A stretch of DNA of 64,000 bases from NCBI RefSeq assembly GCF_011758645.1, contig NZ_JAAMOZ010000001.1, forward strand, positions 620,001 to 684,000. The letters are read 5' to 3'. A model generated the notes under the pieces. The model was not told the origin of the DNA. It did no database searches and saw only the letters and a list, made by a program, of their open reading frames with translations. The translations under genes were made by a program, and so were the position numbers. The number at the start of each line of letters is the position of its first letter. Within the stretch, counting starts at the first letter, position 1. This stretch comes from Brooklawnia cerclae. Lineage in GTDB: Bacteria > Actinomycetota > Actinomycetes > Propionibacteriales > Propionibacteriaceae. Positions 17,875 to 25,590 of the stretch are shown piece after piece.

Positions 17875-18516
17875 ATGGACTCCCTCATCATGATCGTCAT
17901 CGACGAGGTGGCAATCACGATCCTGGCCCTCGGCATCTATTTCACCCGGCATCGTCGCCGCGATCTGGTCGTCGCCTTCCTCGGCGTCAACACGGGAGTG
18001 CTGGCCGTCGCCTCCGTGCTCGGCTCGGTCGACGTGGGGATCGGGCTCGGAATGGGGCTGTTCGGAGTCCTGTCCATCATCCGCCTGCGGTCTTCGGAGA
18101 TCGAACAGCACGAGGTCGCCTACTACTTCTCGGCCTTGTCCATCGGCCTGATCGCCGGGCTCGGCACCGGCTGGGTCGCCATCGCACTCATCGGGCTCGT
18201 CCTGGTGGTCATGTTCATCGGTGACCACCCCTCACTGCTTTCCCGCTACCGCGAACATGTGGTGAACGTCGACGAGGCGATCACGGACGAGCAGGAGTTG
18301 CGCGAGCGCGTCGAGCAGATCGTCGGTGGCCGGGTGCGGTCGATGACGGTGCAACGGCTCGATCTGGTCAACGACACCACCCTCGTGCGGGTCTGCTATC
18401 AGACGGGAACCGGGAAGAGCCGGTCCCCGCAGGCGGTCCACACCGACAGCGCCGGCATACACGCGTTGACCGGCGCCGCGCGCGACGGCGCGGTCCGGGT
18501 CGAGGTGCGATCATGA
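17875..18516 (+). CDS. DUF4956 membrane protein
   Basis: A 213-residue protein with four hydrophobic segments in the first 125 residues, then a soluble C-terminal domain of about 90 residues. The MGLFGVLSIIRLRSSEI stretch between helices is the family hallmark. DUF4956 has no known biochemistry but is repeatedly found beside VTC-domain proteins, as here. AAGGAG lies 7 bases before ATG 17875. Its stop overlaps the VTC gene start. A role as membrane partner of the VTC protein is inferred. Confidence 0.88.
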   Translation: MDSLIMIVIDEVAITILALGIYFTRHRRRDLVVAFLGVNTGVLAVASVLGSVDVGIGLGMGLFGVLSIIRLRSSEIEQHEVAYYFSALSIGLIAGLGTGWVAIALIGLVLVVMFIGDHPSLLSRYREHVVNVDEAITDEQELRERVEQIVGGRVRSMTVQRLDLVNDTTLVRVCYQTGTGKSRSPQAVHTDSAGIHALTGAARDGAVRVEVRS

Positions 18517-19280
18517 GCGGCGGCATGGCGGGCAGCCTCGCCCGGTACGGCTCGGTCACTCTCGACGAGGTCGTCGGCGGGGCATCGCTGCTCACCCGGG
18601 TGGACCGCAAGTACATGATGTGGCGCGACGAGGCCGAGCGCCTCCTTGCAGGGTTGCCGACCGGGTTCCGCGTGCTGGAGACCGACGGGCAGCGTCTGTC
18701 GACCTACGAGTCGGTCTACTTCGACACCCCCGATCTGCTGAGCTTCCGCCTCGCGGCTCGCAGCCGTCCGCGGCGGTTCAAGCTGCGGACGCGCGCCTAC
18801 CTCGACGCGGACGCCGCCTACCTGGAGGTCAAGACCAGGAGCACACGGCGCGTGACCGTCAAGGAACGCATGTGTTACGGGATCGACGAGCGCCATGAAC
18901 TGACCCCCCTGGGCCGCCAGTACGCGGTCGGCACGCTCGCCGGGGCCGGAGTGGAAACCGCGCGGGTGGGCGTCCTCGAACCCGTGGTGACCACGCGATA
19001 CCGCAGGGGGACGCTGTTGCAGCCCGACGGCTTGAGCCGTGCGACGGTCGACATCGACCTGTCCTGGCAGGACGCGGACGCCGGGACGCTCACGCTCGGC
19101 GACGTGGCGATCATCGAGACCAAGTCGGGCGGGCACGCGTCTGCCCTCGACCGGGTCCTGTGGGCGCACGGATACCGGCCCGAGTCGTTCAGCAAGTACG
19201 CGACGGGTCTGGCCGCCCTGCACCCCGGGCTCCCATCGAACAAGTGGCACCGGCCTCTGACTACCTATTTCACGCGCTGA
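18513..19280 (+). CDS. VTC-domain (polyphosphate polymerase-like) protein
   Basis: A 255-residue cytoplasmic protein of the VTC/CYTH tunnel fold. In yeast Vtc4 this domain makes polyphosphate from ATP. Basic and acidic residues expected to line the tunnel are visible in TRVDRKYMM, SVYFDTPDLLSF, RRFKLRTRAYLD, AYLEVKTR, VTTRYRR, ATVDIDL and AIIETKS. The conserved EVK and ETKS glutamates for metal and the RR/KxR basics for phosphate are present. Bacterial members are mostly untested, so the product could be polyphosphate or another triphosphate-derived compound. It overlaps DUF4956 by ATGA. Confidence 0.87.
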   Translation: MSGGMAGSLARYGSVTLDEVVGGASLLTRVDRKYMMWRDEAERLLAGLPTGFRVLETDGQRLSTYESVYFDTPDLLSFRLAARSRPRRFKLRTRAYLDADAAYLEVKTRSTRRVTVKERMCYGIDERHELTPLGRQYAVGTLAGAGVETARVGVLEPVVTTRYRRGTLLQPDGLSRATVDIDLSWQDADAGTLTLGDVAIIETKSGGHASALDRVLWAHGYRPESFSKYATGLAALHPGLPSNKWHRPLTTYFTR

Positions 19281-19298
19281 CCCACGACAAGGACCCCC

Positions 19299-21050
19299 AT
19301 GAACAAGCGACTGATCCTCCCGGCGTTCCTCGCGGCCGTCGTACTCGGCATCACCGGGTGCACCACCGAGACCACCTCGACGGACCCGTCGCCGAGCACG
19401 AGCACGTCCTCGGCGTCCAGTTCCGCGACCTCCTCGGCCACCGCGTCGGCGGACTCCGACCTGAGCGCTGCCGCCGTGCTGGCGGACGACGCCGACGCGA
19501 CGGTGGTCAACGACGACGAGTGGTCGTCCGAGGGCGCCACCGGCATCACCCTGTCGGGCTCCACGGCGTCGGCGGACGGCGAGGGAGTGACGGTGGACGG
19601 CTCGACCGTCACGATCACCGCCGCCGGCGTCTACCGGCTCAGCGGGACGCTGGCCGGCCGGGTCGTCGTCTCGGCCCCGGACGACGCGCTGGTCGTCCTC
19701 ATCCTCGACGGGGCGACGATCACCAGCGACGACTCGCCGGCCATCGAGGTCGTCTCCGCGGACGATGCGGTCGTCGCATTGGCGGATGGCACGCAGAACT
19801 CCTTGTCGGACGCGCAATCGTATGACGACAGCACGCAGGCCAACGCGGCTCTCTACGCCGACGTCGACCTCACTATCACCGGAACCGGAGCCCTGACCGT
19901 GTCGGGCAACGGGAACGACGGCATCACCAGCACGGACGACCTCGTCGTCCTGTCGGGCACCATCACCGTCGACGCCGCCGACGACGGCCTTCGCGGGAAG
20001 GACTCCGTGACGATCCGGGGCGGTACCCTCACGGTGACCAGCGGTGGTGACGGCATCAAGTCCGATCAGGACGAGGACGCGACCGCGGGCTACGTGTTGA
20101 TCACCGGCGGAACGCTGACCGTCGAGGCCGGCGGGGACGGCATCACCGGCGAGACCGACGTGGTGATCACCGGGGGACAGTTCCACGTCGTGACCGGGTC
20201 GGGCCACCAGACGCAGCCTTCCGAGGACGTCTCGACCAAGGGCGTCAAGGCCGGCGTCGCGCTCGTGATCGAGGGCGGCACCCTGGACGTCGATTCCTCC
20301 GACGACGCCGTGCACACCAACGGGTCGGCGCGGATCGCCGGGGGAACCCTCACCCTCGCCAGCGGTGACGACGCCGTCCACGCGGACGCCGCGCTGATCG
20401 TCGACGGTGGGGACATCACGGTGAGCGAGGCCGTCGAGGGCCTGGAGGGTGTCGACATCTCGATCACGAACGGGACGATCAGCCTCACGACGAGCGACGA
20501 CGGCATCAACGCCGCGGGCAACACCACGACGACCGGGATGGGTGGCGGCATGGGCGACACGGGCGAGACGCTGACGATCTCGGGTGGAACGGTCACGGTG
20601 GACGCCCAGGGTGACGGCCTGGACTCCAACGGCAGCCTGACGATCCAGGGCGGCACCGTCGTCGTCCACGGCCCCACCGCGAGCGACAACTCGGCGCTGG
20701 ACGCCAACGGCACCCTCGCGATCGACGGAGGGACGGTCATCGCCCTCGGCAGCGCGGGCATGGCGGAGTCCCCGGACTCCTCGTCCGCCCAGGGCTGGGT
20801 GATGGCGCAGGCCTCCGGCTCAGCGGGTTCGACCGTGCGGATCCAGGACGCGGACGGCACCGTGCTCGGCGAGTTCACCTCGTCGAAGGCGTTCTCGATG
20901 GTGGTCTACTCGTCCGGCGCCGTGGTCAGCGGGGACCAGTACACGATCAGCGTCGACGGGAGCACCACCACCGCGACGGCCGGCCAGTCCGCCGGAGGCA
21001 TGGGCGGCGGGGGCGGCATGGGCGGCGGCCCGGGCGGCCGCAACGGCTGA
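19299..21050 (+). CDS. Beta-helix lipoprotein, carbohydrate-binding domain (DUF4353)
   Basis: A 583-residue protein starting 18 bases after the VTC gene. The signal peptide ends in a lipobox (GITGC), so it should be lipid-anchored on the outside of the membrane. A Ser/Thr/Pro/Ala-rich spacer of about 40 residues follows, then about 20 short repeats of the type GGTLTV-x(3-5)-GDDGI that predict a right-handed beta-helix. Acidic Asp-Asp pairs at the turns could bind calcium or sugar. The C-terminus is a glycine-methionine tail (GGMGGGGGMGGG). The context suggests a surface partner for whatever DUF4956 and the VTC protein make. Confidence 0.85.
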   Translation: MNKRLILPAFLAAVVLGITGCTTETTSTDPSPSTSTSSASSSATSSATASADSDLSAAAVLADDADATVVNDDEWSSEGATGITLSGSTASADGEGVTVDGSTVTITAAGVYRLSGTLAGRVVVSAPDDALVVLILDGATITSDDSPAIEVVSADDAVVALADGTQNSLSDAQSYDDSTQANAALYADVDLTITGTGALTVSGNGNDGITSTDDLVVLSGTITVDAADDGLRGKDSVTIRGGTLTVTSGGDGIKSDQDEDATAGYVLITGGTLTVEAGGDGITGETDVVITGGQFHVVTGSGHQTQPSEDVSTKGVKAGVALVIEGGTLDVDSSDDAVHTNGSARIAGGTLTLASGDDAVHADAALIVDGGDITVSEAVEGLEGVDISITNGTISLTTSDDGINAAGNTTTTGMGGGMGDTGETLTISGGTVTVDAQGDGLDSNGSLTIQGGTVVVHGPTASDNSALDANGTLAIDGGTVIALGSAGMAESPDSSSAQGWVMAQASGSAGSTVRIQDADGTVLGEFTSSKAFSMVVYSSGAVVSGDQYTISVDGSTTTATAGQSAGGMGGGGGMGGGPGGRNG

Positions 21051-21219: not shown

Positions 21220-21711
21220 CTAGAGCACCTGGGCGCACGCCAGGGTGAGATACCGATGGTCGTGGTAGAGCAGCGGGCTCGCCTCCGGGCCCGGTACGAC
21301 GTCGAGCACCTCCGCGGCGATGAGCCGCGAGGCACCCACCTCGACGATCTCCAGGGGACGAGCACGCAGTGCCGCCGGAGCCGATGGCAGGTGGGGCTCA
21401 CCTGTGGGCAGCCGCCGCCACCCCTGCTCCGGCACGAACCGCGGCCCGTCCGGACGCGCGAAGGCGTCCGCGATGTCCCTGTGCTGTTCGCCGAGCAGGT
21501 GGATGAGGAAAGTGCGAGCGTGGAGGATGCCTCCGGCTGAGCCGCCGTCCCGCATCACAGAGAACGACAGCGCCGGCGGATCGGTGCTCAGCGAGGCGAT
21601 GCTGGACGCTGTGAGGCCCACCGGCCCGCGTTCGGTGGTCGCGGTGATGAGGCCCACCGCAGCCGGATGAGTGCGGAAGGCGGTTGTGAAGTCCTCGATG
21701 AGCCTGCTCAT
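21220..21711 (-). CDS. Flavin reductase family protein
   Basis: A 163-residue FMN-binding split-barrel protein of the DIM6/NTAB family. It shows the usual strand order: AVGLITATTERGPVGLTASSIASLSTDPP, FSVMRDGGSAGGI, FLIHLLGEQH, and a C-terminal HDHRYLTL. Such proteins pass electrons from NAD(P)H to FMN or hold FMN for a partner oxidoreductase. ATG 21711 is chosen because the family begins just before the first strand; the frame is open further upstream. It lies 79 bases downstream of the DmsA-like fusion on the same strand, so it may feed it electrons (inference). Confidence 0.87.
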   Translation of the reverse strand: MSRLIEDFTTAFRTHPAAVGLITATTERGPVGLTASSIASLSTDPPALSFSVMRDGGSAGGILHARTFLIHLLGEQHRDIADAFARPDGPRFVPEQGWRRLPTGEPHLPSAPAALRARPLEIVEVGASRLIAAEVLDVVPGPEASPLLYHDHRYLTLACAQVL

Positions 21712-21790: not shown

Positions 21791-24700
21791 TCACGTCGGC
21801 GACATCGCCGGCTCCGTCTGCGGCACATGCCTGCGCACGTCCACGAGGCTGGAATGCTGGGGGTTGCCCTTCGCCAGCGGGGTGGGGCGCTGTGTGGTCA
21901 GCATGTTGATGTTTCCCCGGATGTCCGCGCCGCCGGGCCCGGGCCGGAACCACGCACCCTGCGCCAGCCCGACGACGCCCCGCGCGATGCGATCGGTCAC
22001 CCGGGCACGCACGACGACGCGTCCTCGATCGTTGAAGACATCCACCTCGTCCTCGTCGGCGATGCCGAGGCTCTCGGCGTCCAGCGTGTGGATCCACAGC
22101 CGGTGGGGCTCGAAGCGCTCCAAGCGCTCACTCGTGTCGAGCGTGGAGTGGGTGCGCCGCTTGGTGTGCCAGCCGACGAGCTGAAACGGGTAGCTGGCTG
22201 TCCGCGGACCGTCCTGGGGGCCCTCGAAGCTCGGCACGTACTTGGGTATCGCCGGGATGTCAGCGGGCTGGTGGAGCTCGAAGAGTGCGGGCGAGAAGAT
22301 CTCGATCCGGCCGGACGGCGTGGGGAACCGATGATGCTCGGGGTCGGTGATCTGGTCGCGGAAGGCGATGAAGGGTTCTCCGTCGGGGTACTTGAACAGC
22401 CCCGCCCGCCGGAACTCCTGGAACGGGGGAAGGTCGGGCTCCGCGGCCCTGGTCGCCTCGTAGGTCTCCTCCAGCCGGCCCACCAGGTTCTTCCCGCCGT
22501 GGGTGAACTCGTCGCGGAGGCCGAGCCGCTCAGCGAGGTCGGCGAGCCAGTCGTACTCGAAGCGTGCCTCGAACAGCGGTGCGACGGTGCGGTTGTTCGA
22601 GATGAGGTAGTCGCCGAACTGCCAGGGGGTGCCGATGTTGTCGGTCTCGAACAGCGAGGTGCCGGGCAGGACGATGTCGCTGAACAGCGCGCTCGGGGTC
22701 ATGAACAGGTCGGAGGTGACGATGAACTCGCAGGCGGTCTCGTCCCTGAGGATCCGCGTCGTCTCGTTGACGTCGGAGTGCTGGTTGACCAGGGTGTTCC
22801 CGGCGAGGTTGATGATGAGCTTGATGTCGGCGTCGAGGTGATCGACGCCCTGGAGCCCGTCGTCCCGCCTGGTCATCGTGGTGCCGTCGGTGATCGCCTT
22901 CGTCCACAGGAAGACCGGGATCCGGCCCGGGTAGGGGTTCGGGACCAGGCCCACGTTCGCCGGTCTGGCGTGTGCCCGGATACCGCCGACGCCGGATGCG
23001 GCCCCGCCCGGTATGCCGATGTTGCCGGTGAGGCCCGGCAGCACACAGATGGAGCGCACCGTCTGCTCCCCGTTCCCGGTGCGTTGGGGCCCCAGCCCTT
23101 GCAGCAGTGCGGCGGGTTTCGTGGTGGCGTACAGCCTGGCCAGCCAGCGGATGGTCTCGGCGGGCACGCCGGTGATCGGCTCGGCCCACTGCGGCGTCTT
23201 GGCGATGCCGTCTCGTTTCCCGAACACGTAGCTCAGGTAGTCCTCTTCGTCCTCGTAGCCCTCGGGCATGTGGGCGGCGTCGAACCCGAGGCAGTGGGCG
23301 TCCATGAACTCCTGATCGTGGAGGCCCTCGCGGACGATGGTGTGGGCCATCGCGTCCACGAGCGCGCTGTCGGTCGTCGGCCTGATCGCGATCCAGTGAT
23401 CGGCCAGTTCCTGAGCCGTGTCGCTGAGCCGGGGGTCGACGGCGACGATCATGGTGCCGTTGCGCTTGGCGCGGCGCAGCCAATCGGCGGTCTGTGTGCC
23501 GAAGCCCGTCTCGACGGGGTTGTGGCCCCACAGGACGATCAGCTTGGAGTTCACGAAGTCGTCCGGGCTGTTGCCGGTCATCCCGGTGCCGTAGGTGTAC
23601 TTCGTCGCGTGGGCGGTGCAGGCGGAACTGTAGCTGTTGTAGGAGTCGAGGTAGCCGCCGTCGAGCGCGAGGAGCCCTTTGGCCATGACGTTTCCCCTGG
23701 CCACGGAGTTGATACCCGACGCATAGTGCACGAAGCGGGCGGTGGGGCCGTAGCGCTGCCTCACGCGGCGCAGCTGGAAGGCGATGGTGTCGAGGGCCTC
23801 GTCCCACGAGATCCGCTCGAACCTGCCGTCGCCGCGGGGGCCGACCCTCCTGAGCGGGTGGCGCAGTCGCTGACCCACCAGGAACGTGTTGTGGTACTCG
23901 AAGTCGATGGCGATGTTGCGCAGCGGCACGCCGTCGGTCGAGCGGTCGCCCGGGCCGATGCCCAGGACGCAACCGTTGCGCGTCTCGACGGCGATCGGGT
24001 TGCGGAATCCGCCGTTGCCCAGCCCACACGCCACGGTCGTCGTGGGTTCGTCGGACCATCCGGTCAGGGGGACGAAGCCCTCCGGGTCGGACGCGTCCGT
24101 ATGGCCGCCGGCGATCGTCGTCCCGGACATCTCGGACGCGACAGCCTCCACGACGCCGGCGATCACCTGGGACAGGGCCTGGTAGGCCGGTGACGAGGCA
24201 TGGTGGGCGAGCGCGGCGGCGAACAAAGAGGTGAAGGGGAGAAGATGGTCGCGGACGAAGGGCTCGGCCCCCGGATCGGTCATGTGCCGGGCGACGAACA
24301 GAGCTTCGAAGCCCCAGTGGTCACCGGGTTGCCGGTAGGCAGGATCCGGCGCGAGACCAAGGGCACCGTAGTCACGCAGGACTGTTTCGGTGCGATGAGA
24401 GAGCAGCCGCGGGGCGTCGTCCCCGTCGGTGAGATAGCACGACTCCCACAGTTCCAGGGAGGGGAACGACGTGCCGAAGAACAGTCGGTCGTGTTCGCGG
24501 CGGGCGGCCTGCTCGTCGTCCAGCAGCTCGCGGGCAGCCTGCTCGATCGTCACGGGACGCGAGGCCGGGCCGGCCAGGTCGAGCGAGTCCACCAGGGCGA
24601 GCCAGGTCTGGGGGTCGAAGGGACGAAGCGTGAGTCGCCCGAGAAGCCCGAGCGCGGTGGCCTGCGAGGGCATGATGTGGCGGGCTCCCGTCTGCCTCAC
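21791..24700 (-). CDS. TorD-like chaperone fused to DmsA-like molybdopterin reductase
   Basis: A 969-residue protein. Residues ~15-190 resemble the TorD/DmsD maturation chaperones (HDRLFFGTSFPSLELWESCY; YRQPGDHWGFEALF). From ~215 on it aligns with DmsA: RVGPRGDGRFERISWDEA, YTYGTGMTGNSPDDF, LAGNTLVNQHS and TTQRPTPLAKGNP. The expected Mo ligand serine is kept (~S358). The [4Fe-4S] region is degenerate: only C225 of four cysteines remains, with N229 and N234 in the next positions, and the fourth site is gone. There is no Tat signal, so it should be cytoplasmic. No DmsB or DmsC lies nearby. GTG 24700 overlaps the DUF1684 stop; ATG 24673 is an alternative. It probably reduces a sulfoxide or N-oxide. 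Confidence 0.88.
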   Translation of the reverse strand: MRQTGARHIMPSQATALGLLGRLTLRPFDPQTWLALVDSLDLAGPASRPVTIEQAARELLDDEQAARREHDRLFFGTSFPSLELWESCYLTDGDDAPRLLSHRTETVLRDYGALGLAPDPAYRQPGDHWGFEALFVARHMTDPGAEPFVRDHLLPFTSLFAAALAHHASSPAYQALSQVIAGVVEAVASEMSGTTIAGGHTDASDPEGFVPLTGWSDEPTTTVACGLGNGGFRNPIAVETRNGCVLGIGPGDRSTDGVPLRNIAIDFEYHNTFLVGQRLRHPLRRVGPRGDGRFERISWDEALDTIAFQLRRVRQRYGPTARFVHYASGINSVARGNVMAKGLLALDGGYLDSYNSYSSACTAHATKYTYGTGMTGNSPDDFVNSKLIVLWGHNPVETGFGTQTADWLRRAKRNGTMIVAVDPRLSDTAQELADHWIAIRPTTDSALVDAMAHTIVREGLHDQEFMDAHCLGFDAAHMPEGYEDEEDYLSYVFGKRDGIAKTPQWAEPITGVPAETIRWLARLYATTKPAALLQGLGPQRTGNGEQTVRSICVLPGLTGNIGIPGGAASGVGGIRAHARPANVGLVPNPYPGRIPVFLWTKAITDGTTMTRRDDGLQGVDHLDADIKLIINLAGNTLVNQHSDVNETTRILRDETACEFIVTSDLFMTPSALFSDIVLPGTSLFETDNIGTPWQFGDYLISNNRTVAPLFEARFEYDWLADLAERLGLRDEFTHGGKNLVGRLEETYEATRAAEPDLPPFQEFRRAGLFKYPDGEPFIAFRDQITDPEHHRFPTPSGRIEIFSPALFELHQPADIPAIPKYVPSFEGPQDGPRTASYPFQLVGWHTKRRTHSTLDTSERLERFEPHRLWIHTLDAESLGIADEDEVDVFNDRGRVVVRARVTDRIARGVVGLAQGAWFRPGPGGADIRGNINMLTTQRPTPLAKGNPQHSSLVDVRRHVPQTEPAMSPT

Positions 24701-25590
24701 AGCGCCGGGGCGTCGGCGAGGGCGGACGCCGCGTCCTTCCGATATGTCTGCAGGCGGTCGACGCGGACCGGCGGAGTCTTCTCGCCGGCGGTGACGGGAA
24801 CGTCCAGCCGGTTGCCGGCAGGCGCGAGCGGGCAGGTCACGTAGTTGGTCACCGCGCAGGGGAAACTGATCGCCCGGTTGAAGTCGAGAGCGGTCAGCGA
24901 GGCGAGTGCGTCGGCCGACAGGTCGATGAACCGTCCGGCGCCGTAGGTCTCATGGCCGTTGGTGGCGTCGGTGAAGTGGACGATGCCCCGGACACGGCCG
25001 TCCGCGCCGACCTCGCCCGACACGTCGAACTCGTGGGGCTGTCCCGCGATGTCGGCCGTCAGAGTGCCGACGATCGTGCTGGTCTCCAGCACCCCGTGTT
25101 CGACGGTGGGCGCAAGGACGGGCACGCCGGGTGCGCTGTCGAAGCGCGCGGGCCGTACCCATGCGGGATCGAAGGGGAACACCGGCACGTCGGGGAGTTG
25201 TCTGCGGGCCGATTCCTTCGGATCCCGCACGCGGATCCCGTGGATCGCCTCACCGAGACTGTCGACGCGCGAGAGCACCTCGAGCCTGAGATCGCCCGCG
25301 AGAAGCCGGCTGCTGCGCCCCTGCCCCGCGTCCTGCCCGTGCTCGTCGAGGACGACCGTCGCCTCGGTGACGGGCTTCCCGTCGACCGTGATCGTCTCGG
25401 CGCCGTCGTCGGGCACGTAGGTGATGATGCCCTCCACCAGCACCCAGGAGCCGGGCACGTTCGCGATCCGTAGCGGGGTTCCCTCGTCGAGCCAGTCCAG
25501 GCTGACGAGCGACAACCAGCCGTACGGGCTGTTGAGCCGCCGTACTCGGGCCTCATGCCATTCCCGCCATTGCTGCTCGGTCGTGGTCAT
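24697..25590 (-). CDS. DUF1684 protein
   Basis: A 297-residue cytoplasmic protein of the DUF1684 family. It starts with WHEARVRRLNSPYGWLSLVSLDWL, the family's opening, and ends with the conserved TYGAGRFIDL, LDFNRAISFPCAVTNYVTCPLAPAGNRL block. The Cys and Pro-rich NPxC-type motif is conserved and might bind a metal or substrate, but no reaction is known. ATG 25590 has AGGAAGG upstream. Its stop overlaps the start of the molybdoenzyme (GTGA), so it is the first gene of a three-gene operon and may act on the same substrate. Confidence 0.85.
   Translation of the reverse strand: MTTTEQQWREWHEARVRRLNSPYGWLSLVSLDWLDEGTPLRIANVPGSWVLVEGIITYVPDDGAETITVDGKPVTEATVVLDEHGQDAGQGRSSRLLAGDLRLEVLSRVDSLGEAIHGIRVRDPKESARRQLPDVPVFPFDPAWVRPARFDSAPGVPVLAPTVEHGVLETSTIVGTLTADIAGQPHEFDVSGEVGADGRVRGIVHFTDATNGHETYGAGRFIDLSADALASLTALDFNRAISFPCAVTNYVTCPLAPAGNRLDVPVTAGEKTPPVRVDRLQTYRKDAASALADAPAL

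Follow-up and report, generated by a model that had tools for sequence, protein, structure and literature searches.

Among described molybdenum (Mo) enzymes, the A subunits of dimethyl sulfoxide (DMSO)/selenate reductase complexes (DmsA, YnfE and YnfF; TIGR02166) and the single-subunit proteins DorA, TorA and BisC (TIGR00509), which hold Mo-bis(molybdopterin guanine dinucleotide) (Mo-bisMGD) and have no ligands for the FS0 iron–sulfur (Fe-S) cluster, are close to the gene described below. DorA and BisC work without FS0: soluble or cytochrome donors pass their electrons directly to Mo. The redox enzyme maturation proteins TorD, DmsD and NarJ (PF02613) act in trans, and NarJ is also one of the parts of NarX. 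This mycobacterial ‘fused nitrate reductase’ is a Mo reductase that unites several Nar parts in a single chain and is described as having an unclear function (PMC7759655); unlike the gene below, it belongs to the nitrate reductase lineage. A survey of NarJ-type chaperones uses neither ‘fused’ nor ‘fusion’ in its main text (PMC4464133), and the titles and abstract openings among the open-licence literature matches listed mention no TorD-fused Mo enzyme. Here we analyze a 64,000-nucleotide stretch of the Brooklawnia cerclae genome (contig NZ_JAAMOZ010000001.1, positions 620,001 to 684,000; hereafter the window), in which a TorD/DmsD-type chaperone domain, a linker and a DmsA-type Mo enzyme follow one another in a single open reading frame (ORF) of 969 residues without internal stops (Table 1). 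We assign a probability of about 0.6 to the reading that the product belongs to the DmsA lineage and is a single-polypeptide Mo-bisMGD reductase of the cytosol, which carries its chaperone in the chain, lacks FS0 and is served by a soluble donor.

The N-terminal part of the fusion matches PF02613 at residues 59–142 (39.9 bits, cut-off 22.2) and, in alignment, shares with TorD, DmsD and NarJ the PxDH motif, found at residues 125–128. A profile built from the N-terminal parts of this protein and of a second copy in the same genome, and run against PDB chains, matched DmsD (1s9u, E 2.6e-6; 3u41, 3cw0 and 3efp, E 1.9e-4) and TorD (1n1c, E 2.9e-4) across the chaperone region. With a low-confidence model of the TorD domain, Foldseek placed YcdY, DmsD and NarJ chains at ranks 1–7 (best E 4.8e-3, none at E ≤ 0.001). 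The TorD/DmsD likeness noticed in the original prediction is thus borne out by the PF02613 score and the profile matches; in contrast to the chaperones that act in trans, this domain is covalently tied to the enzyme. The remainder of the protein matches PF00384 at residues 278–725 and PF01568 at residues 839–950, lies barely above the TIGR02166 cut-off (783 bits versus 777.7) and falls below that of TIGR00509 (371.6 bits versus 1017.55). The serine that ligates Mo is retained as S358, as judged by alignment. The predicted full-length kinship with DmsA, Mo-ligand serine included, therefore stands, and the fusion resembles DmsA, YnfE and YnfF throughout its catalytic part. It differs from them in lacking cluster cysteines C2–C4, a twin-arginine translocation (Tat) leader and adjoining DmsB/DmsC genes, and in having TorD in cis. 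A scan for RRx[FLIVM][LIVMFA] found no motif in residues 1–330, the N-terminus being the TorD domain itself, in agreement with the predicted absence of a Tat signal; in copy 2, a single match at residue 109, within its TorD domain, is due to chance.

The cysteine replacements were counted over 65 aligned DmsA-type rows, which include near-identical enterobacterial rows and so are not independent. At C3, Cys occurs in 61 rows, Asn in the two fusions, and Thr and His in one row each; at C4, 63 rows have Cys and the two fusions Ile. The combination of Asn and Ile at C3 and C4 is restricted to these two fusions, and both also carry Ile two positions after C4, where the other 63 of 65 rows have Arg or Lys. 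A one-residue insertion makes the placement of C1 and C2 ambiguous by one residue. In one placement, favored by the sequence CGLNNGGFRNP of copy 2, C225 is C1 and N229 is C2; in the other, given by the MAFFT columns, N229 falls on the Asn preceding C2, and C225 lies one place ahead of C1. Positions C2, C3 and C4 are non-Cys in both, so that the predicted loss of three of the four cluster cysteines holds either way, its two-Asn form corresponding to the first placement. The Fe4S4 domain PF04879 had no match in the window fusion in a Pfam scan extended to E 1 and none in the Pfam scan of copy 2; it was found in all four DmsA-type controls (L154, L092, L093 and L094) and in neither fusion (4/4 versus 0/2).

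A count over 66 rows, in which copy 2 is entered twice and near-identical enterobacterial rows are again present, leaves out frames whose loop segments are identical, whose matches start past residue 300 or whose stretch was too short. By pattern and reading, C2–C4 are retained in 61 of these rows; the other five are L147 (His at C3), L128 (which begins past the motif) and three rows that represent the two fusion genes. Among the frames left out as too short is L156, which begins after C1–C3 and retains C4 only; in the 470 bases read there, none of three frames contains NCGGRC. This 738-residue DmsA-type ORF (L156:6355-8571, forward strand; Bacillota genome G1457) is followed by a 4Fe-4S ORF and a membrane-anchor-like ORF, and two ORFs on its other flank resemble MttB-type methyltransferases by eye.

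The former cluster domain is not devoid of cysteines: C244 lies within it, at a column where only the two fusions have Cys among the 65 rows. Both C225 and C244 are common to the two copies, and the loop domain is conserved between them to the same degree as the catalytic part, as might be expected if an Fe-S cluster or another metal were still bound through these cysteines and non-Cys ligands such as Asn. Against such binding, which we regard as improbable, stand the replacement of all three of C2, C3 and C4, the change from Arg/Lys to Ile two positions after C4 in both fusions, and the failure of PF04879 to match either copy.

The second fusion, of 953 residues, lies on contig C4 of the same genome (98.49% complete, 6 contigs) and is 66% identical to the first, with the same TorD–enzyme fusion and the same cysteine replacements. 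It scores 805.7 bits with TIGR02166 (cut-off 777.7), 47.3 with PF02613 (22.2) and 332.2 with TIGR00509 (1017.55). A TGA flagged in its genome-search match sits at the end, and the annotated 953-residue ORF is open. A false fusion created by assembly error or frameshift is ruled out, because the same architecture recurs on another contig; neither assembly error nor gene decay fits the window fusion. The second copy also bears on whether internal initiation might yield the TorD part and the enzyme separately, for which the window gene offers an ATG in frame at residue 191, preceded at a distance of about 14 bases by GGAGG. Met is missing from the corresponding position of copy 2, which still retains one frame; this makes two separate products highly improbable and upholds the original view of one continuous protein.

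Pairwise dN/dS (nonsynonymous over synonymous substitution rates) between the copies, calculated with our own Nei-Gojobori script, was 0.46 in the TorD domain (175 codons), 0.96 in the linker (28 codons), 0.25 in the former cluster domain (67 codons) and 0.27 in the catalytic part (669 codons). The cysteine-poor domain is therefore under constraint equal to that of the catalytic part, and the linker is nearly unconstrained. Genome-wide, PF02613 matches two proteins, both of them the fusions, with no other TorD-domain match; PF00384 matches three frames, namely the two fusions and one that is NuoG-like by sequence and neighbors. Genes for molybdenum cofactor (Moco) synthesis are represented by MoaC, a MoaA-type radical S-adenosylmethionine protein and a MobA-type protein. 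A silent or decaying enzyme, its partners lost once the gene had been transferred into this lineage, could account for the lack of DmsB/DmsC nearby and for the occurrence of the architecture in few other genomes. We consider it very unlikely, since both copies are open, the three folded parts have dN/dS values of 0.25–0.46, and Moco genes are present although PF00384 otherwise matches only the NuoG-like frame (no search was made for Mo enzymes of other kinds). The second copy, the lack of any further TorD match and the selection pattern strengthen the architecture from which the original prediction inferred a self-maturing, cytoplasmic and cluster-free enzyme with a different electron route.

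Searches for the same fusion elsewhere used the N-terminal 332 residues of the window protein as query; the samples overlap, and diverged fusions may have escaped because of the strict limits and the output format. A joined match to TorD and enzyme was found in the source genome only, both among 198 genomes of the family and 396 of the phylum (E ≤ 1e-8 for each) and among 391 of the order and 394 of the class (1e-14 for each). None of 110 plasmid records covered 80% of the N-terminal query. One of 1247 covered 80% of the whole fusion protein; in the top record, from Rhodovastum, DmsA, DmsB, DmsC and DmsD are separate genes. Viral contigs scanned for TorD gave no match, and no hidden fusion appeared among 35 loci inspected for TorD and enzyme in one frame (0/35), most of which had been picked for long Mo-enzyme frames. 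A scan of 84,980 species genomes with two degenerate peptide patterns, which is not a census, returned one relative, a TorD-family frame that carries the FPSLELWESC motif of the window protein and is open at the contig end (L032:3172-3903, forward strand) in an Oscillospiraceae metagenome-assembled genome (MAG). The rest of a possible fusion was not found in that MAG; ORFs upstream of this TorD are MoeA-like and MobA-like by eye.

In Bacillota, TorD and enzyme shared one frame in none of 245 genomes of one order and in one of 309 genomes of a phylum sample, G1411. Its fusion (L154:5495-8572, forward strand; 1025 residues) contains PF02613, PF04879, PF00384 and PF01568 and has the same domain order in one ORF as the window protein. 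It differs in retaining C2–C4 and PF04879 and in being followed by a 4Fe-4S dicluster (DmsB-like) gene and then by seemingly unrelated genes. The check proposed with the original prediction, a search for the same fusion in other genomes, thus led to G1411, which keeps these cluster ligands. A TorD–DmsA fusion as such is not peculiar to B. cerclae; what is peculiar to the window pair among the rows examined is the fusion combined with replaced cluster cysteines.

The catalytic part of the fusions shares 53.8% identity with L155, 52.8% with the G1411 fusion and 40.5–41.5% with four DmsA rows from their own family. Vertical origin from the DmsA of that family was rejected, a clade with these four rows having a p value of 0.00013 in the approximately unbiased (AU) test; from these identities and this rejection, the gene probably originated outside this family. 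A clade of the window pair with the G1411 fusion was not rejected (AU p 0.441). Sisterhood to alphaproteobacterial DmsA, seen in a first tree (95/98), was lost once Bacillota rows were added, and the fusions then grouped in an eight-row fork (86/95) that was not resolved. The window TorD domain is nearest to the Oscillospiraceae TorD (33% over 131 residues), whereas that of G1411 is nearest to free-standing TorDs. One or two fusion events are possible, and these differing relatives lean towards two. By sequence and neighborhood, the window enzyme would share with DorA, TorA and BisC a single subunit, Mo-bisMGD and the lack of FS0 ligands. The window pair nonetheless lies far under the TIGR00509 cut-off, and the tree indicates that cluster loss was an event within the DmsA lineage, separate from that in DorA, TorA and BisC.

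Since the cysteines that would hold the cluster are lost, electrons probably reach the Mo centre another way, and the neighboring genes supply candidate donors. The stop codon of an upstream DUF1684 gene overlaps the GTG start of the window fusion by 4 bases; the two Cys residues of its product, C245 and C253, are its only ones and form a Cx7C motif. The same holds for all three DUF1684 proteins across the two loci, and DUF1684, which adjoins both copies, is the sole candidate donor common to them. In Haloferax, hypochlorite strongly induces a DUF1684 protein that is classed with thiol-relay proteins through its Cx7C motif (PMC9426492). Directly past the flavin-reductase gene that follows the window fusion, genes for DUF4956, VTC-domain and Cthe_2159 proteins are consecutive on the forward strand (17875-21050).

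Table 1. Positions of the fusion gene, its parts and the adjoining genes in the window.
Feature	Positions	Strand	Description
TorD–DmsA fusion coding sequence	21791..24700	(-)	969 residues; GTG start; alternative ATG at residue 10
TorD/DmsD-type chaperone domain	24131..24661	(-)	residues about 14–190; PF02613, PDB profile matches, alignment, Foldseek
Variable linker	24041..24130	(-)	residues 191–220; occupies the place of the Tat leader
Former Fe-S loop domain	23840..24040	(-)	residues 221–287; C225 kept; N229, N234 and I263 replace cluster cysteines
Mo-bisMGD catalytic and dinucleotide-binding domains	21830..23839	(-)	residues 288–957; PF00384, PF01568, TIGR02166
Ser358, matching the Mo-ligand serine of DMSO reductase	23627..23629	(-)	alignments with DMSO reductase chains and DmsA
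DUF1684 coding sequence	24697..25590	(-)	297 residues; PF07920 (scan of a shorter stretch from 25560)
Flavin-reductase-like coding sequence	21220..21711	(-)	163 residues; PF01613; 79 bases after the fusion

Around copy 2 (L033 and L034, G000:C4:176000-213005, near parA/parB), the genes for hydantoinase A, hydantoinase B, DUF1684, a solute-binding protein, two permeases, ATP-binding cassette (ABC) ATPases, the fusion, an amidase and DUF1684 follow in this order on one strand, with a LysR gene upstream on the opposite strand. Downstream are genes for AroM, GH127, an M24 peptidase, an alpha/beta-hydrolase and a second ABC transporter, together with a weak Asp/Glu-racemase match (28.7 bits, under the cut-off of 31). 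Thioredoxin and thioredoxin-reductase genes, farther from copy 2, adjoin parA/parB and are probably ordinary origin-region genes. The position of copy 2 in an island of transporter, hydantoinase and amidase genes suggests a catabolic role. This setting, in which DUF1684 is the only electron-donor candidate, would also suit a non-redox or internally redox-balanced Mo enzyme (a hydratase, a transhydroxylase or a dehydroxylase-like step) whose relay was lost because outside electrons were needless, and PDB matches of the window protein include acetylene hydratase and pyrogallol hydroxytransferase. Such an enzyme is nevertheless unlikely in view of the family match to DmsA-type reductases with their Ser ligand and of the flavin reductase downstream of the window copy.

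Based on these data, we propose a plausible mechanism for a cluster-free reductase. Standing where a Tat leader would otherwise be, the TorD domain would retain the apo-enzyme, unexported, for insertion of the cofactor. Lacking both FS0 and DmsB/DmsC, the enzyme would draw its electrons from a soluble donor, with no relay before the Mo centre, like the cluster-free DorA and BisC; the candidates are the Cx7C dithiol protein DUF1684 at both loci and the flavin reductase at the window locus. Most likely, the enzyme would reduce an imported small molecule such as an S-oxide or N-oxide. The closest functional parallel may be BisC, which is described as acting on free Met-S-sulfoxide in the cytosol (PMC7402097). 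We infer the cytosolic location, the cluster-free state, the chaperoning in cis, the donor and the substrate. In a more specific version, which we offer tentatively and think unlikely, a dithiol relay would replace the Fe-S relay, running from the DUF1684 Cx7C motif through a C225/C244 pair to Mo, with TorD as a permanent part of the enzyme.

Several observations weigh against a cluster-free reductase of this kind. The full-length predicted model of the fusion is unusable (predicted local distance difference test (pLDDT) score 36.8) and so provides no structure, and the AlphaFold model of residues 1–225, all-helical as it is, is weak (pLDDT only 49.4). A metal or a disulfide could still be accommodated by C225 and C244. 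The flavin reductase adjoins the window copy only, and no gene indicates the substrate. The predicted absence of DmsB/DmsC agrees with the lack of either gene beside both copies in a search limited to the neighborhoods rather than the whole genome. Finally, an enzyme that has lost the relay need not be a reductase, because DMSO-family enzymes without net electron transfer exist.

The fusion provides a natural test of whether a TorD-type chaperone must leave its client, which is impossible here unless it is cut off, and of what a cluster-carrying DMSO-family enzyme requires to function without its cluster. As the only TorD domains found in the genome are tied covalently to the only such Mo enzymes found there, B. 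cerclae is a clean system for both questions. Should a dithiol protein or reduced flavin prove to be the donor, this would represent a new way of feeding electrons into this superfamily and might serve soluble, oxygen-tolerant biocatalysis. A dithiol relay, if true, would make this a thiol-fed enzyme of the DMSO reductase family and document a route from cluster-bearing to cluster-free forms, in which the G1411 fusion may be an intermediate.

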